Origin: a virus
Direction: 5' to 3' (one strand)
IMG/VR virus record: IMGVR_UViG_3300044515_000006
Coordinates: 1-45,861 of that record
Length of the DNA stretch: 45,861 nucleotides
The notes beneath the pieces are model-generated. The model had not been told where the DNA came from. It saw only the letters and a list, made by a program, of their open reading frames with translations, and ran no database searches. The position numbers and the translations under genes were made by a program. Below are positions 10,144 to 36,475 of the stretch, one piece after another (the stretch's first letter is position 1; each line of letters begins with the position of its first letter).

Positions 10144-10921
10144 ACCGTTGGCAATAGACCTCTTCTGCGGTCTTGGCGGATGGGCGGAAGGCTTTCTATC
10201 GGAAGGGTACGACGTGGTGGGGTTCGACACTGAGCGTCACGATTATGGCACTGGCGGTTATCCCGCACAACTCGTTCTTCAGGACGTGTTGACCTTGCAC
10301 GGTTCGCAATTTCGCAATGCTGCGGTGATCGTAGCGAGTCCACCTTGCCAAGCGTACAGCTATCGGGCGATGCCTTGGAAGCGTGCGAAAGCGTTGCCGC
10401 CTCCGAGCAATGAACTATTCGACGCCTGTTTTCGGATTCAGCGGGAAGCCTCGGAAGCTGCGTGGCGGCATATTCCGATGGTGGTTGAGAACGTGAAGGG
10501 CGCTCAACCGTGGGTAGGTAGGGCAGCGTGGCACTACGGGAGTTTCTACCTTTGGGGCGATGTGCCAGCGTTGATGCCAATTACTTTCAATGGCACAAAA
10601 CTACCGGGCAACAATGGGCCGCGGCTGTGGAAAGACCGCGAAGTTCAGTGGTTATGTGACGCGACGAAGAACAACGGCGGCTCGTGGTTCAACCAAGCAC
10701 ACAACACAGAGAGCGGCACAGGGAGGAATCCGGTTAACGGCAGTGATGGCGTTAAGCATGGAGGCGATTGGTTCTCGGGATACGGCGGGGGATTCGGCTG
10801 GGACCACTCGCAAATGAGACAACACTCCTCGAAGTCGCCAGCACGTAAAGCTGCTTCTGCTCAGATAGCGAAAATACCGTTTCCGCTCGCCAGCCACATC
10901 GCCCGAGTTTTCAAACCGTAA
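10136..10921 (+). CDS. cytosine-C5 DNA methyltransferase
   Basis: A 261-residue C5 methylase. Motif I DLFCGLGG (8-15), motif IV SPPCQAYSY with catalytic Cys71, motif VI VVENVKG (Glu118), and a C-terminal motif X-like ASAQIAKIPFPLASHIA are visible. A canonical QRR motif VIII is not obvious and the target-recognition region is short, as in many small phage enzymes. It uses a GTG start. No restriction partner is adjacent, so protection from host restriction or regulation is likely. It is the genome's second DNA methylase. Confidence 0.88.
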   Translation: MPKPLAIDLFCGLGGWAEGFLSEGYDVVGFDTERHDYGTGGYPAQLVLQDVLTLHGSQFRNAAVIVASPPCQAYSYRAMPWKRAKALPPPSNELFDACFRIQREASEAAWRHIPMVVENVKGAQPWVGRAAWHYGSFYLWGDVPALMPITFNGTKLPGNNGPRLWKDREVQWLCDATKNNGGSWFNQAHNTESGTGRNPVNGSDGVKHGGDWFSGYGGGFGWDHSQMRQHSSKSPARKAASAQIAKIPFPLASHIARVFKP

Positions 10922-12624: not shown

Positions 12625-12825
12625 ATGCCACAGAATACCCCGACATGCACCTGTAATCAGCGTACGTGTCGGGTGTGTTCGCATCGGCGGCGGAACAAAG
12701 AAAGTGTTGAGCGAAAGCAAGAATACGAACGGAGAAAGCTTGAAGTTTTCAGCAAATCCCCTGAAGAGTTTGCAAGTGAAGTAAGAGAACGATTAGCAAC
12801 TTATCCCCACAGGCAGTTCGTTTAG
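12625..12825 (+). CDS. small basic Cys-rich protein
   Basis: A 66-residue protein. Four Cys in the first 18 residues (TCTCNQRTCRVC) suggest a zinc knuckle, followed by a strongly basic helix (RRRNKESVERKQEYERRK). It starts 1 nt after the previous stop and overlaps the convergent secreted-protein gene by 4 nt. It is probably nucleic-acid binding; the family is unknown. TTATCCCCACA, a DnaA-box-like variant, lies near its 3' end (about 12801). Confidence 0.55.
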   Translation: MPQNTPTCTCNQRTCRVCSHRRRNKESVERKQEYERRKLEVFSKSPEEFASEVRERLATYPHRQFV

Positions 12826-13739
12826 TCCCACGTATCAACTCCAGCAGCGAATCGAAGCCACTTCCAAATCACCCCGGCGTTGTTTGTATCCATTGAGGCC
12901 ACGCAGATTAACAGGTGTCCAGTCGCATCAATCGCGTAGATATTGCCTTCGGTGTTGGCGGCAGAACTGGGACCGCATGGACCGGGGACAGACGGAGCGC
13001 CCACGCGCGATAGGATCGCTGACGGGCCGGCTGAGCCTGAAGGCCAGTCCACAATGAACTGCGAGAAGGTGCGCATCCATCGATACACCGTCAGATTGCC
13101 TAATGAATCGATCTCGTTGGTTCTCATGCAAACGTAAAAGAATCGCTGATCGTCGAAAGTAAAGGTATTCGGTGTGCATAGACCTGGAGAGTTTGGAGTC
13201 TGCACAAACTTGAGCGAGTCGAAATTACTTCCGCCTCCACCACCAGGCGCTCCCGCTGGACCTAGCGGACCTTGATCCCCTTTATCCCCCTTGGCGCCCT
13301 GAATACCCGGTAAACCTTGCGATCCAGGACTTCCCGCGGCTCCAGGAGGGCCTATCGGACCCGGAGGACCTATCGGGCCGGCCGGACACGTCCCACACGT
13401 TCCTACGGGCGGCGTGGGCGGAACGCTGGAAGGCGGCAATAGGTGGATAGTCGCTATCGCAGTGACCGATCCATCCCGCACCTGAACGATTACGGTGTTA
13501 GAAGGCAGCGATCGGGCGGAATCGGGAAGTCCCGCAGACGGAAGAACAGACGGAGCGGTATACAATCCAGTGCTGTCGATAATCCCAAAGCTGTTGATTG
13601 CCCATGTTGGACTTTTGCACGCTGGGCAGGAGAACTGAATCTTCTGACCAGGCCCGGTGATTGTTGCATCACTTGGGACAATCACCAGTTGCGCAAACGT
13701 TGTAAACTGGAACACAATCAAACCAAGTAAGAGTTTCAT
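12822..13739 (-). CDS. secreted collagen-like protein with signal peptide
   Basis: A 305-residue minus-strand protein starting at 13739. Residues 1-17 (MKLLLGLIVFQFTTFAQ) look like a Sec signal peptide. An Ig-like region follows (CPAC, then IIDSTGLYTAPS, about 38-63), then a Pro-rich linker, about 15 Gly-X-Y collagen triplets (121-166), and a C-terminal globular domain with several Cys. An export signal is unusual for a phage structural gene and suggests a moron acting at the host surface. The Ig-like layout recalls acidobacterial secreted proteins. A TATAAT box lies 6 nt before the ATG, so it has its own promoter. A tail-fibre-type adhesin is the alternative. Confidence 0.75.
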   Translation of the reverse strand: MKLLLGLIVFQFTTFAQLVIVPSDATITGPGQKIQFSCPACKSPTWAINSFGIIDSTGLYTAPSVLPSAGLPDSARSLPSNTVIVQVRDGSVTAIATIHLLPPSSVPPTPPVGTCGTCPAGPIGPPGPIGPPGAAGSPGSQGLPGIQGAKGDKGDQGPLGPAGAPGGGGGSNFDSLKFVQTPNSPGLCTPNTFTFDDQRFFYVCMRTNEIDSLGNLTVYRWMRTFSQFIVDWPSGSAGPSAILSRVGAPSVPGPCGPSSAANTEGNIYAIDATGHLLICVASMDTNNAGVIWKWLRFAAGVDTWD

Positions 13740-13745
13740 AAGGGC

Positions 13746-13794
13746 ATTATAAGGCGAAAGCCTGATTGAACGGCCGCAAGTGCGCAATTATACT
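13746..13794. promoter_or_regulatory. divergent promoter pair
   Basis: On the minus strand TATAAT (13746-13751) is 6 nt from the ATG at 13739. On the plus strand TTGAAC (13766-13771), a 17-bp spacer and TATACT (13789-13794) are 6 nt from the ATG at 13801. TGCGCAATTA (13781-13790), a half-palindrome, overlaps the plus -10 element. Both transcripts should be leaderless. Confidence 0.6.
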
Positions 13795-15830: not shown

Positions 15831-16253
15831 ATGGCAGGAATCCGACATTCCCCACGTACGCGCGCAAAGTTGATCGAAGAATTCAAAAGATGCGGCCGGG
15901 TAGACATGGCCTGTGCGTCTGTTGGTGTCGATCGAAGCACGCACTACGCGTGGCTGAAAGACGATTTAGATTACGCCAAAGCTTTCGCAGAGGCCTTGCC
16001 GATTGCGGCGGGATTGCTCGAAGACGAGGCGTTTCGGCGCGCATACCACGGAACGCTGAAGCCAATGAACGTCGGCGGGAAGATCGTCATGGTCACAGAA
16101 TTCAGCGACCGTCTGATGGAAGTGTTGCTGAAGGCTCGCAACCGCGCGGTATTTGGTGACCGTCAAGATCTGCAAATTACAGGGAAAGACGGAAGCCCAT
16201 TAATTCCCTTGGCTGCGTTGGACGCCTTGTTGCATGGCGACGATCCCGACTAG
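15831..16253 (+). CDS. terS: terminase small subunit
   Basis: A 140-residue protein. The N-terminal helix-turn-helix (residues 8-45, RAKLIEEFKRCGRVDMACASVGVDRSTHYAWLK in outline) is the DNA-binding form seen in many small terminases. A helical middle includes DRLMEVLLKARNRAVFGD, a conserved phrase in the family. It overlaps the large subunit by 20 nt, which supports the assignment. It recognises phage DNA to start packaging. Confidence 0.87.
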   Translation: MAGIRHSPRTRAKLIEEFKRCGRVDMACASVGVDRSTHYAWLKDDLDYAKAFAEALPIAAGLLEDEAFRRAYHGTLKPMNVGGKIVMVTEFSDRLMEVLLKARNRAVFGDRQDLQITGKDGSPLIPLAALDALLHGDDPD

Positions 16254-17673
16254 AGAGTCCGTTGCGGCCGGCTACATGGATCCGGCAGGGTTTCAACGCG
16301 GCGCACTCGGACGAAGGCTCTGGAAGTCGCAACGGCGGATCTGCGAAGCTGTAAACAATAAACCCAACATCGCGGTCAAGGGATGCCATGCTAGCGGAAA
16401 AACCTACGTCTCAGCTGGCCTTGTTCCGTGGTGGTTGAGCAAAAACATCACCGGCAAAGTCATCACGATCGCTCCGACGCTTCGCCAGGTGAAGCTGATG
16501 TGGGGCGAAATATCCCTTGCTCTTTCCACTTCCAGAATTGCGTTCCCGGCGCCATCGAGCGTTGGTTTGAAAATCGCTGAAGATCGATATGCGATCGGGA
16601 TCAGCTCGAGCCGCGGAGTCAACATCCAAGGCTTTCACGGTTCTGACATTCTGGTCATTGCCGACGAAGCGCCTGGTATCGAAGCCGATATTTGGGAATC
16701 AGTAGAAGGAATCAGGGCTGGAGGAAAGGTCACAGTTCTCGAGCTCGGCAACCCGACCGTTCCATCTGGGCATTTCTTCGATAACTTCAGACATCCAGAT
16801 TCAGTTGAATGTATTACCATCAGCGCGTTTGACTCTCCGAATTTGGCCGGCGTGACGATCGAGCAGCTTTTGACGATGAGTGAAGCCGAACTCGACTATG
16901 CTCCGTGGCCTTTGCTGACCTCGAGACGCTGGGTCAAAGATCGCTACCTGAGATGGGGCCCGGGTAACCCGCGGTACATTTCCCGCGTTCTTGGTGAATT
17001 CCCGGGCGCATCTGAGTTCTCAGTTTTCAGCCTTCTATGGATTGAGCGCGCGAAACGTGAGCCAACCGAAGCGGAACTAACTCGAGCAGAAGGCTGTCTC
17101 ATGCAGGTAGGGATTGACGTTGCCGGACCTGGTGAAGACGAAACCGCGGCGTGCGCAAGAGTCAACGGGATCATAATCGATCGAGCGCAATGGTCCCATA
17201 CCGACGCGAATCTTCCTGTAGCGAATTGGCTTCACCGGTTAAGACAGACCCAGCCTTACGAGATCGGGCCTGTTGTGGTTGACGTCTTTGGGATCGGCGC
17301 CGACCTCGGGATTTATCTAGCACAGCAAGGCTTTCCGGTTTACGGATTTCAAGGCGGAAAAGAAGCGATGGAGCCCGAACGATTCCTAAATGCCAAATCT
17401 GAATCGTACTGGAGACTGAGGGATATGTACCACGCGAATTACATCAGCCATCTTCCAGCGACGTTAGACGAAGAGACGGAAGCTCAGTTAGCGGGCATTC
17501 AATACAGGGAAGTCGGACGGGGATTGATTCAGATCGAGCCGAAGGATGAAGCGAGAAAGAGGGGAGTGAGTTCGCCGGATCGGGCGGAAGCAGAGATCAT
17601 GGCATTTTGTCGAGTGCAGTTGAGGGAGACGACGGCGACGTTTGTTGACGATGAGATTATCAGTGAGGTTTAG
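16234..17673 (+). CDS. terL: terminase large subunit
   Basis: A 479-residue packaging motor. The ATPase has Walker A GCHASGKT (50-57) and Walker B ILVIADEA with Asp144/Glu145. The RNase H-like nuclease shows the expected acids in QVGIDVAGPGEDE (Asp294/295 region), VVVDVFGIG (Asp350) and SPDRAEAEIMAF near 455. The length is normal. Unusually, the portal gene is 8.3 kb away instead of next to it. Confidence 0.95.
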   Translation: MATIPTRESVAAGYMDPAGFQRGALGRRLWKSQRRICEAVNNKPNIAVKGCHASGKTYVSAGLVPWWLSKNITGKVITIAPTLRQVKLMWGEISLALSTSRIAFPAPSSVGLKIAEDRYAIGISSSRGVNIQGFHGSDILVIADEAPGIEADIWESVEGIRAGGKVTVLELGNPTVPSGHFFDNFRHPDSVECITISAFDSPNLAGVTIEQLLTMSEAELDYAPWPLLTSRRWVKDRYLRWGPGNPRYISRVLGEFPGASEFSVFSLLWIERAKREPTEAELTRAEGCLMQVGIDVAGPGEDETAACARVNGIIIDRAQWSHTDANLPVANWLHRLRQTQPYEIGPVVVDVFGIGADLGIYLAQQGFPVYGFQGGKEAMEPERFLNAKSESYWRLRDMYHANYISHLPATLDEETEAQLAGIQYREVGRGLIQIEPKDEARKRGVSSPDRAEAEIMAFCRVQLRETTATFVDDEIISEV

Positions 17674-17676
17674 CAA

Positions 17677-17705
17677 TTGCGCAAATGCGCGAAGTGTGGC
17701 AAGAT
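17677..17705 (+). promoter_or_regulatory. promoter at left edge of accessory cassette
   Basis: TTGCGC (17677-17682, inside GCAATTGCGCAAAT), a 17-bp spacer and CAAGAT (17700-17705) are 6 nt before ATG 17712. This spacing is the reason to prefer that start over the ATG at 17685. Confidence 0.5.
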
Positions 17706-17711
17706 CTGAGC

Positions 17712-18038
17712 ATGGCGTTAACAGAGCACCGAAAAGAAATCTGTCGTCTTTGGCGCGAGCGCAATCGCCAACGAGCCAACGAGCAGAATCGCGCTTATTA
17801 CGAACGCTATCCTGAGCGACGTCACGAGTCTGCGATGAACTGGCGTAGAGCTAATAAAGAGAAACGTCGTGCGCATCGCATGGTCGAATATGCCTTGGCG
17901 AAGGGGACGTTATCCAAAGGTCCGTGTGAGAATTGCGGAGACCCAAAAGCAGAGGCGCACCATAAGGATTACAGCAAACCGCTAGACGTCAACTGGCTTT
18001 GTCGCAAATGCCACGGAAAGGAACATCGTGCAGCCTAG
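17712..18038 (+). CDS. HNH endonuclease
   Basis: A 108-residue protein. A basic Arg/Glu-rich N-terminal helix leads to a compact HNH site at the C terminus: CENCGDPKAEAHHKDYSKP and WLCRKCHGKEH, with two CxxC zinc ligand pairs and the catalytic HH. It is a stand-alone, probably homing-type nuclease placed directly after terL, a typical target region. Its end overlaps the glycosyltransferase start by 11 nt. Confidence 0.88.
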   Translation: MALTEHRKEICRLWRERNRQRANEQNRAYYERYPERRHESAMNWRRANKEKRRAHRMVEYALAKGTLSKGPCENCGDPKAEAHHKDYSKPLDVNWLCRKCHGKEHRAA

Positions 18039-18786
18039 AGTTACAGCCGTCTGCCTTTATGCGGATCGCCCACAGTTTGCCGATCTGATTCTAAAATCAT
18101 TTCGTTCGCAGACGTACGCCCGCGCGCACTTGTTGATTTACGATAACGGAGAAAATGCGTTCCCCTCATCGGTTCAGAGCAGCGAGGGCATCGTAACCCA
18201 AGCGCGTGGAGGGCGTTCAATTGGGATGCTACGAAACGCTGCCAATGAATTGACGGCTTCAGACATCATCATCCACTTTGATGTAGACGATTGGTCCCAT
18301 CCTAACCGGATAGCGGAGCAAGTCGCCTTACTTCAAGCGAGCGGCGCGGATTGCGTCGGCTATAACGAGATGCTCTTCTGGAAAAACTGGAGGTCTCGGG
18401 TCAAATGCGACTATTACGGAGAGGATGTTGGCCCAAGTACCGTGATAACAGAACACGCCGAAGCATGGCTATTCACTCGTAGGGAATCACACTACGCACT
18501 CGGAACAAGCCTGTGTTATTGGAGAAAGACATGGGAGCAGAAGCCATTCGAAGATATCCCTAAGCCTGGGGATATGGAAGGCGAAGACGGGCGATTCATT
18601 CGTGGGCTCAACGTTCACAGTATTTCTTCGTTAAGTCTCCCTTTCAACATCCCGACTGAGGAACCGCGGATGATCGCAAGGATACACGGAGCCAATTCCA
18701 GCGGGCAGTATCGAGACATCGCGCGCTCGGACAATTGGAAACGAGTTCCAGAGTGGGACGAGCGAGTACGTAGCATCCTTGCATAA
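18028..18786 (+). CDS. family 2-like glycosyltransferase
   Basis: A 252-residue GT-A fold enzyme. An N-terminal VTAVCLYADRPQF strand, LLIYDNGEN, GRSIGMLRNAAN, and the metal/nucleotide-sugar motif HFDVDDWSHPNRI (DVDD, about residue 90) are typical of GT2-type transferases. GYNEMLFW follows. It uses GTG and overlaps the HNH gene. The acceptor is unknown: virion protein or host surface glycan are both possible. Confidence 0.85.
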   Translation: MQPRVTAVCLYADRPQFADLILKSFRSQTYARAHLLIYDNGENAFPSSVQSSEGIVTQARGGRSIGMLRNAANELTASDIIIHFDVDDWSHPNRIAEQVALLQASGADCVGYNEMLFWKNWRSRVKCDYYGEDVGPSTVITEHAEAWLFTRRESHYALGTSLCYWRKTWEQKPFEDIPKPGDMEGEDGRFIRGLNVHSISSLSLPFNIPTEEPRMIARIHGANSSGQYRDIARSDNWKRVPEWDERVRSILA

Positions 18787-18807
18787 TTGCGCAAATACAA
18801 GTATCCT
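18779..18807 (+). promoter_or_regulatory. promoter with palindrome variant in spacer
   Basis: TTGCAT (18779-18784), a 17-bp spacer holding AATTGCGCAAAT, and TATCCT (18802-18807) lie 7 nt before ATG 18815. The structure is the same as the promoter at 1777. Confidence 0.6.
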
Positions 18808-18814
18808 GTAACTC

Positions 18815-19567
18815 ATGAGTGTCTGGTACTGTATTCCTTCAGCTCGTCCGAAAGAAGAAACCGAGCGCATCGTCAAGGCATGGAACGATCAAGGCTACAA
18901 AGTCGCACTGTATCGCGACTTCACCAGTAGCGTCGACGATCAGCCGAAGTGCGACATGCTTTTCATGGGTCATTATCCCGGCTACGCAGTCGCGACGAAT
19001 ACGCTGGCAAAACTAGTCTTCGAACGAGACAAGGATTGCGATTGGATTGTAGCGGGCGGAGATGACATTCTTCCAGATCCAAACCATTCGGCGATCGGTA
19101 TTGCGCGGGAATGCTCGGATCATTTTCGCAATCGGCACATTGAAGCTACGGGCGAAACCTTCAACGTACATCCAACCTTCGGAGTGATGCAACCGACTGG
19201 CGATAAGGACTTCGGTGACGCGCAAGGTCCGTACATTGAGCGCGTGTGCGGAAGCCCTTGGCTGGGCCGCGAGTTTTGTAGGCGGATCAATCAAGGCAAT
19301 GGACCATTTTGGCCTGACTACTTTCACATGGGCTCAGATGAGGAATTACAAGCAGTCGCAACCAAGCTAGGCGTTCTATGGCAGCGTCCTGACCTGAAGC
19401 ATTATCACTCGCATTGGGGACGGCCACGCGAAGGCGAAAAGATGGGTTCGGCTGACAGGATGCCAGACTTTTTGAAGCGCGCCAACAGTCCTGCGGAGTG
19501 GGCAAAGTACAAACGCATTTTCCAAGAACGCCAAGCGGCGGGATTTCCGGGAAGTGAACCGCTATGA
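18815..19567 (+). CDS. glycosyltransferase-like protein
   Basis: A 250-residue protein of likely GT-A fold. It opens with WYCIPSARPKEE, has a mid-region WIVAGGDDILPDPNH in which GGDD takes the place of the DxD sugar-nucleotide motif, and a distal MGSDEE plus His-rich HYHSHWG. It seems related to phage and cyanobacterial glycosyltransferase-like proteins. It has its own leaderless-type promoter and heads the operon 18815-23982. Confidence 0.68.
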   Translation: MSVWYCIPSARPKEETERIVKAWNDQGYKVALYRDFTSSVDDQPKCDMLFMGHYPGYAVATNTLAKLVFERDKDCDWIVAGGDDILPDPNHSAIGIARECSDHFRNRHIEATGETFNVHPTFGVMQPTGDKDFGDAQGPYIERVCGSPWLGREFCRRINQGNGPFWPDYFHMGSDEELQAVATKLGVLWQRPDLKHYHSHWGRPREGEKMGSADRMPDFLKRANSPAEWAKYKRIFQERQAAGFPGSEPL

Positions 19568-20022
19568 CTAAACACGGGATGGCGCATACTCGCACCTGGG
19601 GCGCATGGAAGGACATGAAGGCCCGTTGCCTCAATACTAAACTTCGCAATTACCATCGATACGGTGGTCGCGGCATCACAGTTTGCGAGCGCTGGATGAA
19701 GTTCGAGAACTTCCTTGAAGACATGGGCGTTCGTCCAGACGGCATGACTTTAGAGCGTAAGGATAACGACGGCAATTACGAACCCGGCAATGTGATTTGG
19801 GCTTCACGATTCGCACAAGCACGTAATACTCGACGGAATCGTTATCTCACGATCAACGGAGAAACCCAAACTATCAGTGAGTGGTCGCGCGAGGCCGGTC
19901 AGAACCGCGAAACCATACGGCGCCGATTGTCGGATGGATGGAAGGATATTGATGCCGTCTTCGGCAAAAGCGAACGGGGCGTGCGTGATGAGCGGAGCGG
20001 CAGGTTTCGAAAGCACGCATGA
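19564..20022 (+). CDS. HNH/AP2-type putative homing endonuclease
   Basis: A 152-residue protein. The core (YGGRGITVCERWMKFENFLED, then LERKDNDGNYEPGNVIWAS, AQARNTRRNR) is the signature of phage proteins annotated as AP2/HNH endonucleases. A C-terminal helix-turn-helix (ISEWSREAGQNRETIRRRL) follows. It is coupled to both neighbours by ATGA overlaps. Paralogues occur at 22353 and 24009 in the same cassette. Confidence 0.75.
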   Translation: MTKHGMAHTRTWGAWKDMKARCLNTKLRNYHRYGGRGITVCERWMKFENFLEDMGVRPDGMTLERKDNDGNYEPGNVIWASRFAQARNTRRNRYLTINGETQTISEWSREAGQNRETIRRRLSDGWKDIDAVFGKSERGVRDERSGRFRKHA

Positions 20023-20750
20023 TCTACAAAAGCAATCTCGCGGCGCCTGACCTGTCGAAGTTCTTCCGACATCTCCACATTCGCCCAATGCCGCATTCCT
20101 TCGGACACAGCGTCCCCTCAGACTGGGCAGATAAAGGCGATGATGATCCAGTATTCGGGCTGTACAAAAACTGTGGAATGTGGACGCATGACGAAGCGGC
20201 GATTCTCTACAATTGCGCACTTCAATTCAAGTACGAGGATTGGATCGACATCGGGTGTCACACTGGATGGACCTCGCGATTCATCAACGAAGCGACAGAG
20301 CATCGCGTAGCTTGCTGTGATCCCATGCTGGCAGTTCCCAAGTTTCGTTTTAGGTTTTATGAGAACACCAGTTTCCCGGCTGAGTGGACTTGGCGCGTGA
20401 CGTCGAACGATATGTTTCGAAACGGGCGGCCGAACGCGAAAGCAGCGGGGTACTGCATTGACGGGGATCATGAACCGGGGAAACCGTTAGAGGATGCGAT
20501 GAACGCATTTGCGCATTTGAAAGACAATGGCGTAATCTTGTTGCATGACTTTGTTGGGAAACCAGTACGGGAAGCGGTTCAGTACTTAATGTCTATGGGA
20601 CTCAAGTGCAGAATATTCTATACTCCGCATGGAATCGCTTGTTGCTGGCAGGGGGATTTTGAACCACCGGATCATGTGCCAGACCCAAACGTAAAGGCGC
20701 AATTGCTAGACGGCAGGCTAAACGATTTCGATTTCACGAGGTGCGAATGA
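20019..20750 (+). CDS. class I SAM-dependent methyltransferase
   Basis: A 243-residue protein. Motif I DWIDIGCHTGWTS (about 72-84), CCDPM after the second strand, CIDGDHEPGKPLEDAMNAF and GVILLHDFVGKPVREAV are features of the Methyltransf_24-type family often found with sugar-modifying enzymes. It lies between a glycosyltransferase and a TylF-type methylase, so glycan or small-molecule O-methylation is likely; the substrate is unknown. Confidence 0.75.
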   Translation: MIYKSNLAAPDLSKFFRHLHIRPMPHSFGHSVPSDWADKGDDDPVFGLYKNCGMWTHDEAAILYNCALQFKYEDWIDIGCHTGWTSRFINEATEHRVACCDPMLAVPKFRFRFYENTSFPAEWTWRVTSNDMFRNGRPNAKAAGYCIDGDHEPGKPLEDAMNAFAHLKDNGVILLHDFVGKPVREAVQYLMSMGLKCRIFYTPHGIACCWQGDFEPPDHVPDPNVKAQLLDGRLNDFDFTRCE

Positions 20751-20893
20751 AGTTTTGGATGGTTCTCTCGCTATGGATTTTGTTTATTGGGGTTAACGCG
20801 CTTGGAAGCGACGGGCGTCTTCTCAGGATCGGACGTATAGTAGCGGTGTCTCCGTTATTGTTGGTCGCTGTGAAATGGGCGCTTCCTGAATGA
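20747..20893 (+). CDS. small two-helix membrane protein
   Basis: A 48-residue ORF with two hydrophobic stretches (FWMVLSLWILFIGVNAL and VAVSPLLLVAVKWAL). Both ends overlap neighbouring genes by ATGA, which strongly supports translation. It could place cassette enzymes at the membrane. No family is recognised. Confidence 0.5.
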   Translation: MKFWMVLSLWILFIGVNALGSDGRLLRIGRIVAVSPLLLVAVKWALPE

Positions 20894-21492
20894 ATAGGCT
20901 TGACAACATCGCGCTCGCGGCGCTCTCTTCACGAGAAACGCTTTACGCAACTTACGATATCTGCATGCTCGCACTGAAACGCGACGTCCCCGGCGACTTC
21001 GTAGAGTGCGGCGTATTCGGCGGCGCGCAAGCTGCGGCAATGGCCCTATCGTTACACGGCACGATCGGACCGAGCAGCACGCGGAGGGTTCATCTGTTCG
21101 ATAGTTTCACAGGCATCCCGGAAGGCGGGGAGCACGATACGAACTGGACTCATCCAGCCGGCACGTCAGCATGTTCACTGGAAGGCGTAATGTCCAATAT
21201 GGCGCAATGGGGAATTGACGAGAGTCTTCTTGTTTACCACAAAGCTCTATTCTCTGAAGTGTTGCGCGATTTTCACGCCATGACTGTTTTTGGCGAACGC
21301 AAAATAGCTGTGCTGCGGATCGACTGCGATCTCTACGAAAGCACGAGAGTCTGCATTGAGCAGCTTTATCCGCTGGTTTCTCCGGGCGGCTGGATCATTT
21401 GCGATGACTTCGCATTACCGGGAGCAAGGAAAGCAATTGACGATTATCTAGGGAATGAGTTCCCGCCAATCTATTTCCAGAGGCCACGATGA
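20890..21492 (+). CDS. TylF/MycF-type O-methyltransferase
   Basis: A 200-residue protein with the diagnostic TylF pattern: VPGDFVECGVFGG (motif I), HLFDSFTGIPEGG, VLRIDCDLYESTRVCIEQLY and GGWIICDDFALPGARKAIDDY. The paired Asp residues bind the divalent metal. Characterised relatives methylate hydroxyls of deoxysugars on macrolides. Here it sits between glycosyltransferases and an FkbM methylase, which points to methylated glycans. The protein is slightly short at the C terminus for the family. Confidence 0.88.
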   Translation: MNRLDNIALAALSSRETLYATYDICMLALKRDVPGDFVECGVFGGAQAAAMALSLHGTIGPSSTRRVHLFDSFTGIPEGGEHDTNWTHPAGTSACSLEGVMSNMAQWGIDESLLVYHKALFSEVLRDFHAMTVFGERKIAVLRIDCDLYESTRVCIEQLYPLVSPGGWIICDDFALPGARKAIDDYLGNEFPPIYFQRPR

Positions 21493-21749
21493 AAACGTTT
21501 GACGAAGCGTTTACAGCCTGTTCGCGCGCGACTAAATCCGAGGATGATGCTCGCTCCGCGTCTGACGAGATGATCAACATTCATGAACGTTATGGCGAAT
21601 TCGCCAAACAGGTTTTGGGCAGCGAGCAAGTCAGGCACGCAATGGAAGTGTGGGCAGAGATAGCTTTTGATCACGGCGTCAGCAGCGCAGTCTTCACGGC
21701 GTTCATGAGCGGGCTGATCACTGGGATGGAAATGGAGAAAGCAGAGTGA
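21489..21749 (+). CDS. hypothetical small helical protein
   Basis: An 86-residue, mainly helical, acidic protein (HERYGEFAKQVLGSEQVRHAMEVW, then a Gly/Met-rich end). It is coupled to both methyltransferase neighbours by 4-nt overlaps. It may be an accessory subunit. No family is recognised. Confidence 0.5.
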   Translation: MKTFDEAFTACSRATKSEDDARSASDEMINIHERYGEFAKQVLGSEQVRHAMEVWAEIAFDHGVSSAVFTAFMSGLITGMEMEKAE

Positions 21750-22351
21750 CCAGCTATAGTCAGTACTCCGAAGACGTGATCTTTGTTCCGCTTCTCGAGA
21801 AATGTCAGACGAAGAGATTGCTCGACATCGGCGCCTGGGACGCGAAGACGTTTTCGAACTCACGCGCGTTAATCGAGATGGGCTGGAGCGCGGTTTTATT
21901 CGAGCCATCACCGGGGCCGCTGCGGAATCTAGCGCGCGAATACGACGGCATCGGCCGGGTGCGTATTGTGGGCGCCGCAGTGACGGTGCATGGCGGCTTG
22001 GTTGACCTCAAGGTGACAGATGATGCTGTGAGCCAGCCTGATAACTCAGTAAAACAAGAGTGGTTAGAAACGGGCGGATTCTACGGCGTCGTCACAATGC
22101 CATCGCTGGCGGTAGCGGATCTCTTCGCGCAGTTCGGAGGCGACTTCGAATTTTGCTCGTTTGATTCCGAGGGGACTAGCTGTGATCTGTTCTTTGAAAT
22201 GCTTCGCGTCGGGCCACGCCCAAGATGCGTAATCGTTGAGCACGATAATCGCATCGTTGAACTGAATCAGTACGCGGAGGCGGCGCACTACCGTCAAGTC
22301 CATATCAATGGCACCAATTGGGTAGGTATTTGGTCAGGCAAGAGGGAATAG
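21746..22351 (+). CDS. FkbM-family methyltransferase
   Basis: A 201-residue protein matching FkbM: YSQYSEDVIF at the N terminus, LLDIGAWDAKTFSNSRALIE (motif I), VLFEPSPGPLRNL, a DAVS segment, and FEFCSFDSEGTSCDLFFEML. FkbM enzymes methylate oxygens, often on sugars or polyketides. It uses a GTG start overlapping the previous stop. It ends in TAG just before the AP2/HNH gene at 22353. Confidence 0.87.
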   Translation: MTSYSQYSEDVIFVPLLEKCQTKRLLDIGAWDAKTFSNSRALIEMGWSAVLFEPSPGPLRNLAREYDGIGRVRIVGAAVTVHGGLVDLKVTDDAVSQPDNSVKQEWLETGGFYGVVTMPSLAVADLFAQFGGDFEFCSFDSEGTSCDLFFEMLRVGPRPRCVIVEHDNRIVELNQYAEAAHYRQVHINGTNWVGIWSGKRE

Positions 22352-22352
22352 G

Positions 22353-22994
22353 ATGGCGGATTTAACAGGGCAAACTTTTGGGCTGTTGACTGTGGTCGCT
22401 CGCGTTGATGGCAAATACTACTCCTGCATTTGCGAATGCGGCCAAGTCCTGAAGGTTCGATCTGATGCAATTCAACGCAATATTTTAGGATGCGGAAAAT
22501 GCAAGCCACGAAAAGACCTAGCTGGGTTGAGATTCGGAAGGCTCTTCGTGATCGGGTTGGCGATCATGGGTGCCCGTGGTTCTATTTGGGAATGTCAGTG
22601 TGACTGCGGGCTGCTAGTGCAAAAGTCGGTGTCGGTTCTGCTCGGAGGCGTAGCGAAAAGTTGTGGATGTCTGAGACGCGACTACACGCGGTCGCGTTCG
22701 CTGACTCACGGGCAAAGCGAAACTAAACTTTACTCAATCTATCTGAACATGAAGAACCGCTGTTACAACCAAAATGTTCCAGCGTACAAAGACTATGGCG
22801 GTCGAGGGATCTCGGTTTGCCAACGGTGGCTCGAGTCCTTTCAGAATTTCGCAGACGATGTGGGGCAACCGCCTCCCGGCTTGACGCTAGATCGTTACCC
22901 GAATAACGATGGCAACTACGAACCCGGAAACGTGCGCTGGGCCACACGTAGTCAACAAGCGTTTAATCGTAGAGCAAAAAGGAAAGCGGCATGA
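22353..22994 (+). CDS. HNH/AP2-type putative homing endonuclease with duplicated zinc ribbon
   Basis: A 213-residue protein. Two tandem zinc-ribbon modules (YSCICECG then GCGKC, about residues 23-50; WECQCDCG then SCGCL, about 79-107) precede the same core as 19564 (YGGRGISVCQRWLESFQNF, then LDRYPNNDGNYEPGNVRWA). The C-terminal helix-turn-helix seen in its paralogues is missing; the protein stops in a basic tail (RRAKRKAA). It starts 1 nt after the FkbM stop and overlaps the next gene by ATGA. Confidence 0.78.
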   Translation: MADLTGQTFGLLTVVARVDGKYYSCICECGQVLKVRSDAIQRNILGCGKCKPRKDLAGLRFGRLFVIGLAIMGARGSIWECQCDCGLLVQKSVSVLLGGVAKSCGCLRRDYTRSRSLTHGQSETKLYSIYLNMKNRCYNQNVPAYKDYGGRGISVCQRWLESFQNFADDVGQPPPGLTLDRYPNNDGNYEPGNVRWATRSQQAFNRRAKRKAA

Positions 22995-23764
22995 CGCGCG
23001 CAATCGTGAATGTGGCAACCGGGCCGTACGTGAAAGGGCAAGAGAGGCTGAAGCTTGCAATTGCGGAAATGACACAAGTAAGAGACAAGGCGGATCTAGT
23101 TCAATGCCATACGTGGCAAACGATCCCGAGTGATTGGCCCACTCACCAACAGAAGCCCTACGCATTCAAGGCATACGCGTTGCACGAATCAGAACGATAC
23201 GCTGATCTGCTTCTATGGTGCGATGCCTGCATCCTTCCAGTGAAATCGCTTGAACCACTGTGGGAGCGAATTGAGCGCGATGGATACTGGATGAGTCGAA
23301 ACGGTTGGACGAATTACGAGTGGACGGCTGACAGTGCGTACCGTGATCTATTCAGTTCTGAAATTCTAGCCGATTACAAAACGTCGCGTGTTCAACTGGA
23401 AGAGTTAAATAAAACGATCCCGCACGTAGTAGCGACGGCATTCGGGATCAACGTAAAGCATCCCAAAGGCGCCGCGTTCCTCAAAGAATACTATCGACTG
23501 GCAAGCGAAACAAATGCCTTCTGTGGACCGTGGAAAAATGCTGATCATGCGGACACGCAAGAACTGGATCGCGTGTACAATGCGCGCGTGGCTCCATGTG
23601 GGCCTCCAGACGTGCGAGGTCACAGGCACGATCAGACGGCCGCTTCGGTAATCGCATGGCGGCTCGGCTTCGAACTGACGAATCCGCCAGAAATCTTTAG
23701 TTATGGGAAAGCAGGCGACGTGCTGGACGAGCGGACGATACTTTTGGCTGACGGCTCATATTGA
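22991..23764 (+). CDS. glycosyltransferase-like protein
   Basis: A 257-residue protein with the layout of phage glycosyltransferase-like proteins: N-terminal IVNVATGPYVKGQERLK, then KPYAFKAYALHES, and LLLWCDACILPVKSLEPLW, where WCDAC holds the acidic sugar-nucleotide contact. The remainder has several His/Asp pairs (HADTQELDRV, RGHRHDQTAAS). It is the last large enzyme of the 18815 operon. Confidence 0.68.
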   Translation: MTRAIVNVATGPYVKGQERLKLAIAEMTQVRDKADLVQCHTWQTIPSDWPTHQQKPYAFKAYALHESERYADLLLWCDACILPVKSLEPLWERIERDGYWMSRNGWTNYEWTADSAYRDLFSSEILADYKTSRVQLEELNKTIPHVVATAFGINVKHPKGAAFLKEYYRLASETNAFCGPWKNADHADTQELDRVYNARVAPCGPPDVRGHRHDQTAASVIAWRLGFELTNPPEIFSYGKAGDVLDERTILLADGSY

Positions 23765-23982
23765 TGACGCTCAACGAACTCTATCGACCTGGGACGAAGT
23801 TGAAAGACGTTCCATACGATTTTGAAGGGATGCCAGTGAAGCAATGGCTGAGGCTTCAGATGGATCAGGACTTCGCAAGTCCCAAGGGCAAGATACCGGA
23901 CGGCGCGCCGGGTACGCAATGGCGCAAGAAGGCAATTGCGACATCGCGCGATAATTACGGAATGAAAGGGCCTAGGGTATAA
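23764..23982 (+). CDS. hypothetical small protein
   Basis: A 72-residue protein. ATG 23764 overlaps the previous stop (TGATG); an in-frame TTG one codon earlier is less likely. It is Pro/Gly/Lys-rich with GAPGTQWRKKA near the C terminus. No family is recognised. The palindrome-bearing promoter of the next gene starts at its stop codon. Confidence 0.5.
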   Translation: MTLNELYRPGTKLKDVPYDFEGMPVKQWLRLQMDQDFASPKGKIPDGAPGTQWRKKAIATSRDNYGMKGPRV

Positions 23983-24003
23983 TTGCGCAAATCGCGTTAT
24001 AAT
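23977..24003 (+). promoter_or_regulatory. promoter for HNH gene 24009, two TATAAT boxes
   Basis: GTATAATTGCGCAAAT (about 23977-23992) combines a TATAAT with the palindrome variant. A second TATAAT (23998-24003) lies 5 nt before ATG 24009. The same TATAATTGCGCA fusion precedes the minus-strand HNH at 36462. Confidence 0.6.
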
Positions 24004-24008
24004 AGCGC

Positions 24009-24626
24009 ATGGCTCATCTGGAAGGCATACAGCCGGGGGATCAGTTCGGGGAGTTGGCAGTAATCGAATTTGCAGGTAGAAACCAAAACTCTCAGACACT
24101 CTGGGAGGTTCGCTGCACTTGCGGTTCAATATCTACTGTGTTGGGAACCAATCTCAAGCGCGGCAACACGACACAGTGTAATAGCGGACTGCATCGGGCG
24201 TTTCATGGTGGCGTAGGCACGCCTGAGTACAACGCCTGGAGGTCAATGAGGTGGCGCTGCAACCCACGAAACAAGCGTTGTTATCCACTTCATATACAAG
24301 TCTGTCCAGAGTGGCTGAGATCGTTTGATGCGTTTCTCGCCCATATTGGACCAATGCCCACGCCGGGGCTTGAGGTTGATCGCAAGAACAATAATGCGGG
24401 TTATGAGCCCGGAAACGTTCGGTGGGCCACACGCAGCCAACAGATGCGCAATACAAGCCTCACCCGGCTACTCACAATCAATGGCATCACAAAGCCAGAG
24501 GTTGAATGGGCCGAAACCTCTGGTATTTCTGTGGCAACTTTGCGGTACAGGGTCAACAGAAAATGGCCAGAGGGAGAATTACTTTCAGCGGATAAGTGGA
24601 AACATAGGAGAGGTCGATGCGCCTAA
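24009..24626 (+). CDS. HNH/AP2-type putative homing endonuclease
   Basis: A 205-residue protein. A single N-terminal zinc-ribbon-like module (WEVRCTCG, then a degenerate CNSG), the core (LHIQVCPEWLRSFDAFLAHIG, then LEVDRKNNNAGYEPGNVRWATRSQQMRN) and a C-terminal helix-turn-helix (VEWAETSGISVATLRYRV) are seen. It carries its own leaderless-type promoter and overlaps the next glycosyltransferase by 10 nt. It is a clear paralogue of 19564 and 22353. Confidence 0.76.
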   Translation: MAHLEGIQPGDQFGELAVIEFAGRNQNSQTLWEVRCTCGSISTVLGTNLKRGNTTQCNSGLHRAFHGGVGTPEYNAWRSMRWRCNPRNKRCYPLHIQVCPEWLRSFDAFLAHIGPMPTPGLEVDRKNNNAGYEPGNVRWATRSQQMRNTSLTRLLTINGITKPEVEWAETSGISVATLRYRVNRKWPEGELLSADKWKHRRGRCA

Positions 24627-25519
24627 TTGGCATGTTAGCAGTCAGAAACGAAGGCTGGTGTCTTGGATTGAGTGCGCGCGTGGCTCTCATGTGGTGCGAT
24701 GACCTTGTAATTTTATTACACGAGTGCTCCGATCAGTCTCCAGAGATCGCGTACGCATTGGCGGACGAATACCAAGGGCGTGTTGTAATCTCGCACATGA
24801 CCGGCGAGTGGGCAGAAATGCAACATCGGCAATGGATGTTGGAATTGGCTCGGAAAGTAGGCGCAACCCATGTAGCGATCACCGACGCGGACGAAATCAT
24901 CAGCGGCAACATTCTGCCGGACGTATCAGGACCAGACGTTGAGTTTTCTCCGCGATGGTATGCAGGCCAAATGCCGCAAGGCTCAATCCTTCAACTACCC
25001 GGCTACAACTTGCGTGGCTCGCTGAATCGTTATCACAATAACGGTATTTGGGGAAACAGATGGTTCTCTCTCGCCTTCAAAGACGATCCAAACTTGTCAT
25101 GGAGTGGCGATAAATTCCATAGTCGCGAACCGCACGGCGCGCCATTGAAAGCGTATCGCCCAATCTCTCAAGGGCAAGGCGGCATTCTTCACCTATGGGG
25201 TGCAAGTGAACGTAGGCTGAGAGCGAAGAGCGCACTGTACAAGATCACCGAACGGCTGAGATGGCCAAGCAAGCCGATAGCCGACATCGAGCTGATGTAT
25301 AGCTGGGCCGTCCATGGGCAGGCTGGGCATCCTTCGTTTGGAACGCCTGAGACTTGGACCTACGCTGACGTTCCAGCTTCGTGGTGGGCTCCGTATTCGC
25401 ATCTGGTGAAGTATCTGGACGTGGAAGCTGAACCGTGGCAAGAAGCAGAGTGTCAGCGATTGGTAGCGGAACACGGCCGCGAGAAGTTCAAAGGCTTAGA
25501 TCTATTTGGAGTCGCATGA
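24617..25519 (+). CDS. glycosyltransferase, GT2/GT92-like
   Basis: A 300-residue protein. MLAVRNEGWCLG (the NE turn common in GT2-like enzymes), CDDLVILLHECSD, a Gln/His segment (EMQHRQWMLELARKVGA), and VAITDADEII (DAD motif, about residue 92) mark a GT-A nucleotide-sugar transferase. Further HLWGASERRLRAK and a Trp-rich C-terminal part resemble phage glycosyltransferases of the same group. It is the last enzyme before the structural operon resumes. Confidence 0.82.
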   Translation: MRLIGMLAVRNEGWCLGLSARVALMWCDDLVILLHECSDQSPEIAYALADEYQGRVVISHMTGEWAEMQHRQWMLELARKVGATHVAITDADEIISGNILPDVSGPDVEFSPRWYAGQMPQGSILQLPGYNLRGSLNRYHNNGIWGNRWFSLAFKDDPNLSWSGDKFHSREPHGAPLKAYRPISQGQGGILHLWGASERRLRAKSALYKITERLRWPSKPIADIELMYSWAVHGQAGHPSFGTPETWTYADVPASWWAPYSHLVKYLDVEAEPWQEAECQRLVAEHGREKFKGLDLFGVA

Positions 25520-25860
25520 AATCACCCATGCAGCCATCTCTTTTCGGTGGGGATGACGCGATTGCATTTCCTGACCGTCAACCGCTTGCGGCAACTGCCG
25601 ATCCAGTTACGTCCTTCATCGCCGCGGCCGACCTAACAAATAGCGGTCGACGTCGTCAGCAAAAACTAGACGTGTTGAAATTTCTGCGAGTTCAAACCGA
25701 ACCATTAACTTCGGCTGAAATAGCGGCAAAGTCGGGATTGGACCGGCATCTATGCGCCCGCCGACTACCTGACCTAGAAGCCGACAAGATGGTAAAACGC
25801 TGCGCTATACGGGAATGCAGCCGCACCGGGCGACCGTGTGTAACATGGGCCTGCGTGTGA
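25516..25860 (+). CDS. winged-helix DNA-binding protein
   Basis: A 114-residue protein starting at ATG 25516 (ATGA overlap with the glycosyltransferase). The linker (QPSLFGGDDAIAF, then ADPVTSFIAAADL) precedes a winged helix: QQKLDVLKFLRVQTEPLTSAEIAAKSGLDRHLCARRLPDLEADKMVKRC and a wing (RTGRPCVTW), given here in outline. This type recurs in phages beside replication or regulatory genes. It may regulate the cassette or bind the palindromes; that is inference. Confidence 0.65.
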   Translation: MKSPMQPSLFGGDDAIAFPDRQPLAATADPVTSFIAAADLTNSGRRRQQKLDVLKFLRVQTEPLTSAEIAAKSGLDRHLCARRLPDLEADKMVKRCAIRECSRTGRPCVTWACV

Positions 25861-25878: not shown

Positions 25879-25950
25879 ATGCAACGCATTCGCGTCTTCT
25901 GGCTCTTCGCGGCGATCTACGCTTACTTCTGTAGGGACGGCGCGCGATGA
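25879..25950 (+). CDS. tiny hydrophobic peptide
   Basis: A 23-residue ORF (hydrophobic centre VFWLFAAIYAYF) that overlaps the portal start by ATGA. It may be only a leader that couples portal translation. Confidence 0.35.
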   Translation: MQRIRVFWLFAAIYAYFCRDGAR

Positions 25951-27851
25951 GAAAACGCCTTCAACTTCTCTTAGCCAAAGCCTTTCGATTCCTTCAACAG
26001 AAACCCGATCAATCCGCCACAATCCGAGAGCTTCACGCCGAATTAACGCAAGCCCGTGAGCGTGAAGACTCGTTCCGTGCCGACTACATCGAACGCTCAA
26101 CCGAACTGATTGAAGCACGCCAGATGGCCGGATCAGGACCGTGGTTAGTTGCCGAATCTCGGGAGCAAATCAACAAACCAGGGAAATTGAGAGAGACGAA
26201 CGCACTCACCAGTACAGGAGCCTTTGGGGATGTCGCGTTGGCTCTTGAGAACCTGGAATGGCGCCGCGAAGTCAATCTTTCATGGCTGGAGTTCTCGAGG
26301 TGGGGCATTCAGCAAATCATGCTGGTGTCTCGTCTCTACTACATCAAGAATCCAATCATCCGCAGATTAATTGACGTGGCAGCTTACTACGTTTTCGGTC
26401 GAGGCGTTGAAGTCAGCTCGCCGGATGACGGGGCGAATCAAGTACTGAAGGATTTCTTCGAGCGCAACAAATCGACGCTCGGCCAAATCGCGATGGTGGA
26501 ACTTGAAAAGCGCAAATACTACGATGGCAATCTGTTCTTTGTCTTCTTCGCTGACAAGATCAGCGGAGGAAACGTAAACGTTCGAACGATTGACGCAACG
26601 GAGATTCAGGACATCATCACAGACCCGGATGATAGCGATACGCCTTGGTTTTATCGCCGCGGCTGGCGACAGCGTTCATTTGACGTGCAAACAGGAGCGT
26701 CGGACAGCAAGGATGTGGAAGCGTGGTATCCAGCGATCGGGTATGAACCTGAAACGATGCCGACGCAGATAAACGGATTGCCTGTGATGAAAGACAATCC
26801 CATCTTGCATCGAAAGGCCGGGGGAGTATCGAAGTGGAATTTTGGATGCCCGATCATTTACCCGGCGCTGACCTGGGCGAAGGCTTCAGTCAAGTATCTG
26901 GAATCGTGCGCGACTGTTAAGAAAGCTCTGGCGTCAATCGCCATGACCCTTACGACGAAGGGCGGACAGCAGGCGATCGCGGGCGCAAAGAACCAACTGG
27001 GAACGAGTGTCGGACCGCCCACGCAATCTTGGGACACAACACCCCCTCCGATTGATGGGAGCATTTTCGCATCGGGGCCGGGAACGACACTGAAGGCATT
27101 TCATACTGGCGGGGCCGGCGGAAATCCTGAAGACGTCAGACGATTTACGTTGATGGCTTGCATGGTTGTGGGAGTTCCTGAAACGTTTCTTGCCGACGTT
27201 TCTACGGGGAACTTGGCAACTGCTACAACGTTGGATCGGCCGACAGAACTAGGGTTTCTTGAAAAGCAAGAGGCCTGGAGAGAAGATTTAATCACCATCT
27301 CCAAGTACGTTTTGAAGGTCAGCAACGGAGCTCCCAAAGGGATCCTCCGGGCGTCGATGGACAAGAAGAAAATAGGCGCCGGCGAAGTGCTCATCAGGGA
27401 AGCGAAACTGAAACGTTCTCGAGATGGCCGTAGGCTCGTTCCTGTGAAAGAAGCGGCGCAAACTGGGGAAGTGATCGTAACGGTGAATTTCCCGGCGATA
27501 CTGGAAGGCGACGTTCCGGCGATGGTCACAGCAATCGTCCATGCGATGACGCTCGAAAACAAGGGCGGGCAAGTCGTAGGGATTGACGAGAAGGTCGGCA
27601 ACCGAGCGCTATATGACACGCTCGGAATTGAAAACGGTGACGAGATTATTGAAGAGCAATTTCCAGATGGCGAATACGATCCTGACCGGACCAAGGAACC
27701 TTTGCCCGCTCCGATCATGAAGGCATTGCCTGACCCTGGCGGCGCACCACAACTACCTGGCGGGGAAGATCCACCTCCACCAAAGCAGAAAGAATCGCGA
27801 TTAGACCGAGCGGCGCGGCTTGTTGAAAAAGCACTGGCGGCGGTGGAATGA
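25947..27851 (+). CDS. portal protein
   Basis: A 634-residue protein. A charged N-terminal coil is followed by the portal core: YYIKNPIIRRLIDVAAYYVFGRG, KRKYYDGNLFFVFF, IDATEIQDIITDPDD, a middle with VGVPETFLADVSTGNLATATTLDRPTELGF (in outline), and a Pro-rich acidic C terminus. These features are typical of siphophage portals that form the dodecameric DNA gateway at the capsid vertex. It overlaps the minor head gene by ATGA. Confidence 0.88.
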   Translation: MRKRLQLLLAKAFRFLQQKPDQSATIRELHAELTQAREREDSFRADYIERSTELIEARQMAGSGPWLVAESREQINKPGKLRETNALTSTGAFGDVALALENLEWRREVNLSWLEFSRWGIQQIMLVSRLYYIKNPIIRRLIDVAAYYVFGRGVEVSSPDDGANQVLKDFFERNKSTLGQIAMVELEKRKYYDGNLFFVFFADKISGGNVNVRTIDATEIQDIITDPDDSDTPWFYRRGWRQRSFDVQTGASDSKDVEAWYPAIGYEPETMPTQINGLPVMKDNPILHRKAGGVSKWNFGCPIIYPALTWAKASVKYLESCATVKKALASIAMTLTTKGGQQAIAGAKNQLGTSVGPPTQSWDTTPPPIDGSIFASGPGTTLKAFHTGGAGGNPEDVRRFTLMACMVVGVPETFLADVSTGNLATATTLDRPTELGFLEKQEAWREDLITISKYVLKVSNGAPKGILRASMDKKKIGAGEVLIREAKLKRSRDGRRLVPVKEAAQTGEVIVTVNFPAILEGDVPAMVTAIVHAMTLENKGGQVVGIDEKVGNRALYDTLGIENGDEIIEEQFPDGEYDPDRTKEPLPAPIMKALPDPGGAPQLPGGEDPPPPKQKESRLDRAARLVEKALAAVE

Positions 27852-29734: not shown

Positions 29735-31012
29735 GTGCTTCTTCTCCTCCTAAAATCGAAATTATGGAAACGCTCAGCCGTCGCAGCACTCGCGTTAACC
29801 GCGGCTCAACCAACCGTAAAATTAAGCGTTCCGCCCCGCCCCGCACAAGCAAACTTAACTTTCGCCACTAGTTCAGTCAGCCTCAAATCGACCGTACCTG
29901 TTTCAAAAGCCACGCTGACATTCTCAGCGGGTACACCGGCTTTAAAGCTCACCGTTAAACCATCGACAGCAAGTCTCGTTTTCACCGGGCTGTCGCCTGG
30001 ATTGAAAACCACCGTCAAGCCTTCAACGGCCAGTCTCGCGTTTGGATCATCGACTCCCGCGCTGAAACTGACGTTGAAACCGTCAACCGCGACGATTGTA
30101 TTTGCGGCTCAGAACACCGCACTGAAGCTCACGCTCAAGCCGGCTACTCAGGCCTTGGTATTCACAGGCCAGACACCAGTTCGATTGATTGCGTTGCGTC
30201 TCTCGCCAACTGCGGCGTCTCTGGCGTTCTCGGCATTATCGCCAGCGCTGAAGTTGACCGTTAAGCCTTCCGCGCAGGCGCTCGTATTCAATGCGCAGAC
30301 GGTTGCGCTGAAAAGCATTCGGCCAGTCGGGACCGCGGCGTTAGTGTTCACCGCAGCGACTCCGAAACTCGGACGAATCGCGAAACCTGCGAGTCAGCCG
30401 CTTTCTTTCACTGCGGGGAGTCCGGCGTTAAAAGTAACTGTCAAGCCCACGGCGCAGTCGTTGACGTTCTCGAGCTCCACGCCAGTCGTAAGCATCGCGT
30501 TGAAGTTGAATCCGGCAGCTCAGGCGCTCTCGTTCACGGCTCAGTCGGTGAGGGTCAAAGTAACCACCAAGCCGACACCGCAAGCGTTAAGGTTTTCCGC
30601 GGGTACGCCGATTCTGACCAATGGCAACGCCAAGAGGCCGGCGGCAGCAACGCTTCTGTTTTCGGCTGGCACGCCGACGCTAAAAGTATCCGCGGCGATT
30701 CAATCGCGCTCCTTACACTTCACTGGCGGTTCGGTGACGTTCAGTGTAGTATCGCGGCCGGCCGCGGCTTTGCTGTCGTTCTCTAATTCGACGGTGGCAA
30801 TCTCGATTGTCAATCTGCCTGTCATTGCCAAAGTAGTTGAGGTGGATCTGCACGGATCGGCAGCGAACAATGGGAATACAGGAACGCTTCAGCAACCATC
30901 ACAGAGAGGGAATGGCGCAAATTCAGGTAACAACGGGACTACGAAAGACGCAAAGCAGACTGGATCAGTGGTAAGTTCTAGCGCTACCGGAACACTGGTT
31001 AAGGTAGACTGA
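29735..31012 (+). CDS. repetitive beta-strand virion or surface protein
   Basis: A 425-residue protein using GTG 29735. After a short Leu/Lys N terminus it consists of about 16 consecutive repeats of 20-22 residues with the pattern alkltvKPstasLvFtagtP (about residues 30-375). A C-terminal segment rich in Asn, Gly and Thr (NNGNTGTLQQPSQRG) follows. Each repeat predicts two short strands, so the whole should form an elongated beta solenoid or fibre. No sequence family is recognised. It lies in the virion gene block and may be a head or tail fibre. Confidence 0.65.
   Translation: MLLLLLKSKLWKRSAVAALALTAAQPTVKLSVPPRPAQANLTFATSSVSLKSTVPVSKATLTFSAGTPALKLTVKPSTASLVFTGLSPGLKTTVKPSTASLAFGSSTPALKLTLKPSTATIVFAAQNTALKLTLKPATQALVFTGQTPVRLIALRLSPTAASLAFSALSPALKLTVKPSAQALVFNAQTVALKSIRPVGTAALVFTAATPKLGRIAKPASQPLSFTAGSPALKVTVKPTAQSLTFSSSTPVVSIALKLNPAAQALSFTAQSVRVKVTTKPTPQALRFSAGTPILTNGNAKRPAAATLLFSAGTPTLKVSAAIQSRSLHFTGGSVTFSVVSRPAAALLSFSNSTVAISIVNLPVIAKVVEVDLHGSAANNGNTGTLQQPSQRGNGANSGNNGTTKDAKQTGSVVSSSATGTLVKVD
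29808..30850 (+). repeat. degenerate 60-66 bp tandem coding repeat
   Basis: About 16 in-frame units of 60-66 bp encode the KP...F...P repeats of the 29735 gene. Units are diverged at DNA level (not perfect copies) but keep period and reading frame. They are coding, so they are not a CRISPR array. Confidence 0.7.
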
Positions 31013-36462: not shown

Positions 36463-36469
36463 ATGCGCA

Positions 36470-36475
36470 ATTATA
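36470..36475 (-). promoter_or_regulatory. -10 box of the minus-strand HNH gene
   Basis: TATAAT on the minus strand is followed by TGCGCAT and the ATG at 36462. The TATAATTGCGCA fusion is the same as that upstream of the HNH gene at 24009. Confidence 0.55.

Follow-up and report, generated by a model that had tools for sequence, protein, structure and literature searches.

A module of glycosyltransferases and methyltransferases between the genes for the large terminase subunit (TerL, gene terL) and the portal protein is a conserved trait of an uncultured phage family, and we consider it probable that its enzymes place O-methylated sugars on proteins of the virion. We describe the module in the IMG/VR virus record IMGVR_UViG_3300044515_000006, of which one strand of the entire record (positions 1-45,861; 45,861 nucleotides) was analysed and is referred to here as the window. 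The module (17685-25860) lies within the 8.3 kb that separate the TerL stop (17673) from the portal start (25947). This space holds fifteen open reading frames (ORFs), all on the plus strand, which are real where an initial annotation of the window had placed an enzyme cassette. They encode four GT-A-type glycosyltransferases (B, C, K and N), three methyltransferases (E, G and I), four HNH proteins (A, D, J and M) and four small proteins (F, H, L and O), listed with their coordinates in Table 1. Most neighbouring genes of the module overlap, by 4-14 bases, so that genes are coupled within runs; the four gaps follow TerL and precede C, M and the portal gene.

The module is conserved in its position among relatives

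A scan with the portal protein recovered 12 relatives and a profile scan 62, with portals mostly 45-60% identical; a scan of viral contigs with the single TerL protein gave no match, and those with the portal and K succeeded. Almost all sufficiently long loci among the 62 portal relatives have the module in a similar gene order, with B usually first past terL and N usually last ahead of the portal gene. Presence was counted in 46 loci that extend about 5 kb or more ahead of the portal gene, a set that includes the window, in which L004 and L029 are the same contig and for which several non-detections reflect truncated contigs. N is the most widely kept enzyme, found in 44 loci (43 labelled ones, and L060, whose N match overlaps its portal ORF), followed by B (37), K (32), C (28), I (25), E (12) and G (11). 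Tens of independent contigs have a homologous module at this position, with catalytic-type residues conserved, which is more than chance would produce. The upstream terminase sequences of these loci fall into several groups (u0, u9 and the type of the window), so that the module and the portal gene stay together while terL is exchanged.

Two relatives depart from this arrangement. In L067, the TerL and portal genes are 17 bases apart, and C, E, G, I, K, N and B are grouped just upstream of the terminase genes. L032 (record G030) retains the portal, the protease and the major capsid protein (MCP); its TerL belongs to a different family, and none of the module enzymes was detected anywhere in the record. 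The latter is a cassette-free relative of the kind that the initial annotation had proposed for comparison, and it shows that the module is dispensable, not strictly essential. A recent or lone insertion, as the word "inserted" in that annotation implied, can be rejected: the module is family-wide, it moved as a set in L067, and its composition equals that of its neighbours (GC content 0.530 for the module enzymes and 0.543 for the structural genes). Nor is its description there as the largest accessory system of the genome supported as it stands, the module being near-universal in the portal family.

Modules of related loci have also gained or lost additional enzymes: further GT2 and TOD1-type glycosyltransferases, other methyltransferases, a Gfo/Idh oxidoreductase, a GDP-mannose 4,6-dehydratase (L012; TIGR01472, above the cut-off) and a GDP-fucose-synthase-like protein (L042; below the cut-off). 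The module of L034 also includes a sigma-70-like factor with regions 2 and 4 (L034:5297-5920), with homologues in L006, L021, L024, L050 and L053, mostly just before N.

Enzyme families of the module

B and N are GT2-related: both match Pfam profiles of glycosyltransferases (GTs), N at a score just under the curated cut-off. The profile of B matches heparosan synthase B (5.7e-12) and SpsA, and D85, D87 and D88 are invariant in its family alignment. N has two invariant aspartates (D90 and D92 in 28 sequences) and matches GmaR, the flagellin glycosyltransferase of Listeria, at 1.5e-4; this similarity is remote and covers about 110 residues. GmaR is a soluble protein-modifying GT, as we propose for N, from a different setting, being bacterial and having flagellin as its acceptor.

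C and K have no match of useful score to any Pfam, PHROG or NCBIfam family, and we assigned them by structure prediction. The AlphaFold (AF2) model of C has a mean predicted confidence (pLDDT) of 91.6, with B4GALT7 (1e-5) and RmlT (1.7e-5) as its best Foldseek matches, and D83 and D84 are invariant in 25 sequences. For K (pLDDT 93.7), the best match is BoGT6a (1.2e-6), followed by COLGALT1 and by the capsid glycosyltransferase of chlorovirus PBCV-1 (2p72, 8e-5). D78 is the single invariant aspartate of K, the H211/Q215 region is kept, and BoGT6a, its best structural match, is metal-independent; several relatives have two K paralogues. Against solved GT-A enzymes, both models reach a Foldseek probability of 1.00 with TM-scores of about 0.4-0.55, and these predicted folds place C and K among the GT-A glycosyltransferases at moderate structural similarity. 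The four GT-like enzymes of the initial annotation are thus retained.

The same holds for two of its three methyltransferases, E as a Methyltransf_24-type and G as a TylF-type enzyme. G also matches NovP, MycF and CalS11 in the PDB, which are sugar O-methyltransferases, and has the D-D-LYEST and DD(F/Y) motifs in common with NovP and MycF. I, which had been called an FkbM methylase, is FkbM-like and belongs to a conserved family, at a score below the cut-off of the FkbM model; its profile has no match in the PDB. We searched 50,697 phage records by tblastn: B, C, E, I and K gave zero matches, N matched only cyanophage-type records and one marine virus, and G matched cluster O phages.

From these families the synthesis of methylated glycans, as first proposed, is well supported: by the GT-A enzymes, by the similarity of G to TylF, NovP, MycF and CalS11, and by the GDP-fucose pathway enzymes in the modules of relatives. 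The four HNH genes, also called correctly from the start, match PHROG endonuclease families and are gained or lost among relatives. F is the sole likely membrane protein of the module by hydropathy; the enzyme families have low hydropathy and look soluble.

Apparent replacement of module genes in near-identical phages

L049 and L061 have portals 98.8% and TerL proteins 97% identical, with B at 68% and N at 81%; L061 and L063 have portals 96% identical and B at 61%. In the pair L009 and L013, with portals at 98.5%, I (98%) and N (97%) are nearly unchanged, and C, E and K are at 81%, 82% and 82%. Along the module DNA of this pair, windowed identity alternates between blocks of 92-99% and blocks of 65-82%. 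We read these identity patterns as the probable replacement of module genes one by one in place. That enzymes are exchanged at a fixed position suggests diversifying selection on the glycan structure itself.

Virion proteins are the favoured target

The initial annotation had left the target as either virion proteins or the host surface. Of these, we favour the glycosylation of virion proteins with O-methylation of the sugars, which we judge probable and the best reading, ahead of host-surface remodelling. Virion proteins are the better target because the enzymes all look soluble, the module is located in the head gene block, and there is a precedent in Corndog-type (cluster O) mycobacteriophages; soluble GTs in a head block would act most simply on virion proteins in the cytoplasm.

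In YungJamal, a Corndog-type phage, terL is followed by HNH and portal genes, then by an O-methyltransferase, one hypothetical gene and two annotated GTs, and after these by the protease and the capsid gene. The profile of G matches its O-methyltransferase (gp36) at 6e-19, and the GT profiles of the module have no match to gp37-gp39. In cluster O, three tandem GTs are described downstream of the O-methyltransferase, and these enzymes are reported to modify the capsid and the tail tube (PMC11600133, which refers to Freeman et al. 2023). Cluster O and the window thus have in common a TylF-related O-methyltransferase and tandem GTs in the head block by the portal, and an HNH gene between terL and the portal. 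They differ in that cluster O has about four genes, after the portal, whereas here there are seven enzymes, before it, and in that relatives of the window add GDP-sugar synthesis and swap genes within the module. Mycobacteriophages of cluster F1 also encode GTs, and Che8 and Rita have capsid glycans, on the major capsid protein; the GTs of the F1 phage Maravista are near the genome end, and the relevant passages of the source describe no set of methyltransferases (PMC11256854). In chlorovirus PBCV-1, too, a virus-encoded GT takes part in capsid glycosylation; this is a eukaryotic algal virus, and the likeness of K to its enzyme is at the level of the fold and weaker than that to BoGT6a.

Three observations weigh against virion glycosylation. 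The GTs of cluster O are not detectably homologous to those of the module, and the precedent consists of gene content, position and one methyltransferase; the fold matches of C and K are moderate; and L032 keeps its head genes without the module.

From the enzyme families or folds, the synteny, the allele swapping and the sugar-nucleotide genes of relatives, we infer a scheme for the acceptor, the donor sugars, the order of addition, the timing and the benefit. During late gene expression, cytoplasmic GT-A enzymes would assemble a short glycan on at least one protein of the particle. N or B may start the chain, C and K may extend it, and the TylF-, Methyltransf_24- and FkbM-type enzymes would O-methylate its sugars. 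The acceptor would most plausibly be a virion protein shared by the family: the MCP (34722), the small protein before it (34294), the portal, or a tail-tube-like protein (38136). In the 28 loci compared, the MCP and the protein encoded at 34294 are shared, that encoded at 38136 less often, and these three are the likely acceptors. We rejected three target candidates that have no homologues in the 28 loci: the 29735 product, which the initial annotation had named, and the 43654 and 44074 products, which are encoded next to 44554, another candidate of that annotation. The 29735 gene (29735-31012) encodes a 425-residue protein of many short repeats of about 24 residues. Variation of the glycan may, for example, change how the particle is recognised by the host or by other factors.

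Host-surface remodelling, in which the enzymes would change the LPS or polysaccharide of an infected or lysogenic host and might, for example, prevent superinfection, seems to us unlikely. Soluble GTs and methyltransferases can also take part in those reactions of O-antigen or capsule synthesis that occur in the cytoplasm, many surface glycans receive fucose from GDP-fucose, and the resemblance of B to heparosan synthase and SpsA fits such a role. However, we see no flippase, polymerase, GtrA/GtrB-like or multi-span membrane protein in the module of the window (Gtr profiles were not searched separately), the enzyme families are unlike membrane enzymes, and the module stands in the head gene block. 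A contig of an Acidobacteriia metagenome-assembled genome (L017; 3.9 kb, possibly a co-binned phage) has a portal 64% identical to that of the window, and 299 genomes sampled from its class gave no further portal relative. With portal relatives in only one of the 299 class genomes, a role in lysogenic conversion gains no support, and host-surface remodelling is left with no positive evidence. The contig is only a hint of an Acidobacteriia host. It and general knowledge suggest that the samples are soil-type.

It is improbable to a much higher degree that the module is a cargo island of unrelated enzymes collected by HNH homing genes and having no joint function. Four HNH genes are interleaved with the enzymes, and the enzyme content differs among relatives; yet the enzyme set, its order and its position recur in relatives and the enzymes moved together in L067, whereas the HNH genes are gained and lost. 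Least probable is the hypermodification of phage DNA by GTs that decorate modified bases. In its favour, the phage encodes an N6/N4 DNA methylase as well as a C5 cytosine methyltransferase (10136-10921). Against it, no thymidylate-synthase/hydroxymethylase family member was found in 30 family records (controls positive), a TET/JBP search gave zero matches with a silent control, sugars and small molecules are the substrates of TylF- and FkbM-type enzymes, and GDP-fucose genes are not known to be connected with DNA bases.

Promoter-like elements and other features of the window

The palindrome AATTGCGCAAAT is found at or beside three of the four module gaps (17675, 18785 and 23981). Its core 8-mer TTGCGCAA has 13 copies in the window, where shuffled sequence would lead one to expect 0.7, with starts that include 1785, 4902, 11466, 17677, 18787, 23983 and 31900, and it stands at gene junctions in the window and in several relatives. 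Across loci, a -10-like TAnnnT box follows TTGCGCAA at a distance of 17-18 or 8-9 bases, much more frequently than it follows control palindromes; promoter-like sites total 44, against 5 in shuffles. TTGCGCAA is probably a phage promoter or operator element, and with such sites at its gaps the module is probably transcribed from promoters of its own, which are of the type used elsewhere in the genome. Scans for consensus sigma-70 promoters and for terminators gave counts below chance. The initial annotation had named a split of the enzymes among unrelated transcripts as a result that would contradict it. The module probably does comprise several units, as judged from sequence; these have a promoter-like signal in common. 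A 25-base form of the element (1777-1801 and 18779-18803, 96% identical) precedes two unrelated genes.

Elsewhere in the window, an HNH gene on the minus strand (36016-36462) lies opposite the first part of a conserved ORF of the virion block (36019-36945, plus strand), in antisense to it; the true start of the plus-strand gene is probably further downstream. An ORF on the minus strand (12822-13787) has collagen-like GPPGPIG repeats, with a similar ORF in the Acidobacteriia contig L017 (1633-2157), and 5515-5934 encodes a weak nucleoside 2-deoxyribosyltransferase-like protein.

Table 1. Genes and sequence elements of the module and its borders.
Feature	Position	Strand	Evidence and remarks
TerL, left border	16234..17673	+	phrog_2 7e-21; ~52% identical to L003 TerL
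Palindrome AATTGCGCAAAT, putative genome-wide regulatory element	17675..17686		Just past terL; no clear -10 at this copy
A, HNH endonuclease	17685..18038	+	phrog_2340 1.2e-20; start probably 17712; few relatives have A
B, GT-A glycosyltransferase, GT2 type	18028..18786	+	Pfam GT2 5e-6; first module enzyme in nearly all relatives
Palindrome AATTGCGCAAAT before C	18785..18796		In promoter-like sequence TTGCGC, 9 nt, TATCCT; overlaps preceding stop codon
C, GT-A-fold glycosyltransferase-like protein	18815..19567	+	Predicted structure; no database family
D, HNH endonuclease	19564..20022	+	phrog_3377 4e-49
E, Methyltransf_24-type methyltransferase	20019..20750	+	Pfam 1.8e-7; family alignment
F, 50-aa single-span membrane protein candidate	20741..20893	+	Hydropathy; seen in window only
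G, TylF-type sugar O-methyltransferase-like protein	20890..21492	+	TylF 4.8e-29; 101.8 bits, cut-off 23
H, 86-aa protein	21489..21749	+	Matches no family; window only
I, FkbM-like methyltransferase	21746..22351	+	TIGR01444 (NCBIfam fkbM_fam) 1.7e-5; 25.3 bits, below cut-off of 37.7; conserved family
J, HNH endonuclease	22353..22994	+	phrog_374 5e-72
K, GT-A-fold glycosyltransferase-like protein	22991..23764	+	Predicted structure; no database family
L, 73-aa protein	23761..23982	+	Homologues in two relatives
Palindrome AATTGCGCAAAT before M	23981..23992		In promoter-like sequence TTGCGC, 9 nt, TATAAT; overlaps preceding stop codon
M, HNH endonuclease	24009..24626	+	phrog_374 2e-43
N, GT-A glycosyltransferase	24617..25519	+	Glyco_tranf_2_4 1.4e-5, just under curated cut-off; last enzyme before portal
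O, small winged-helix protein	25516..25860	+	MarR_2 1e-3 and phrog_1123 2.8e-11, both on longer frame 25435-25860
Portal protein, right border	25947..27851	+	phrog_10963 7.5e-58

Implications for the phage family

Glycosylation of phage virions has been shown in few systems, and the module is probably a larger, conserved and mosaic version of the known phage genes for it. It offers new GT families to test, and natural relatives in which the module is absent (L032) or relocated (L067) for comparison. More tentatively, the module may serve the family as a serotype-like system, in which the single exchange of glycosyl-, methyl- and sugar-nucleotide genes at one fixed site of the head block would give near-identical phages chemically different glycan coats, in part by way of GT-A families (B, C and K) that match no reference phage. 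A conserved mosaic module in tens of soil-type contigs suggests that virion glycosylation is a near-core trait of the family, with a glycan that varies between near-identical phages.

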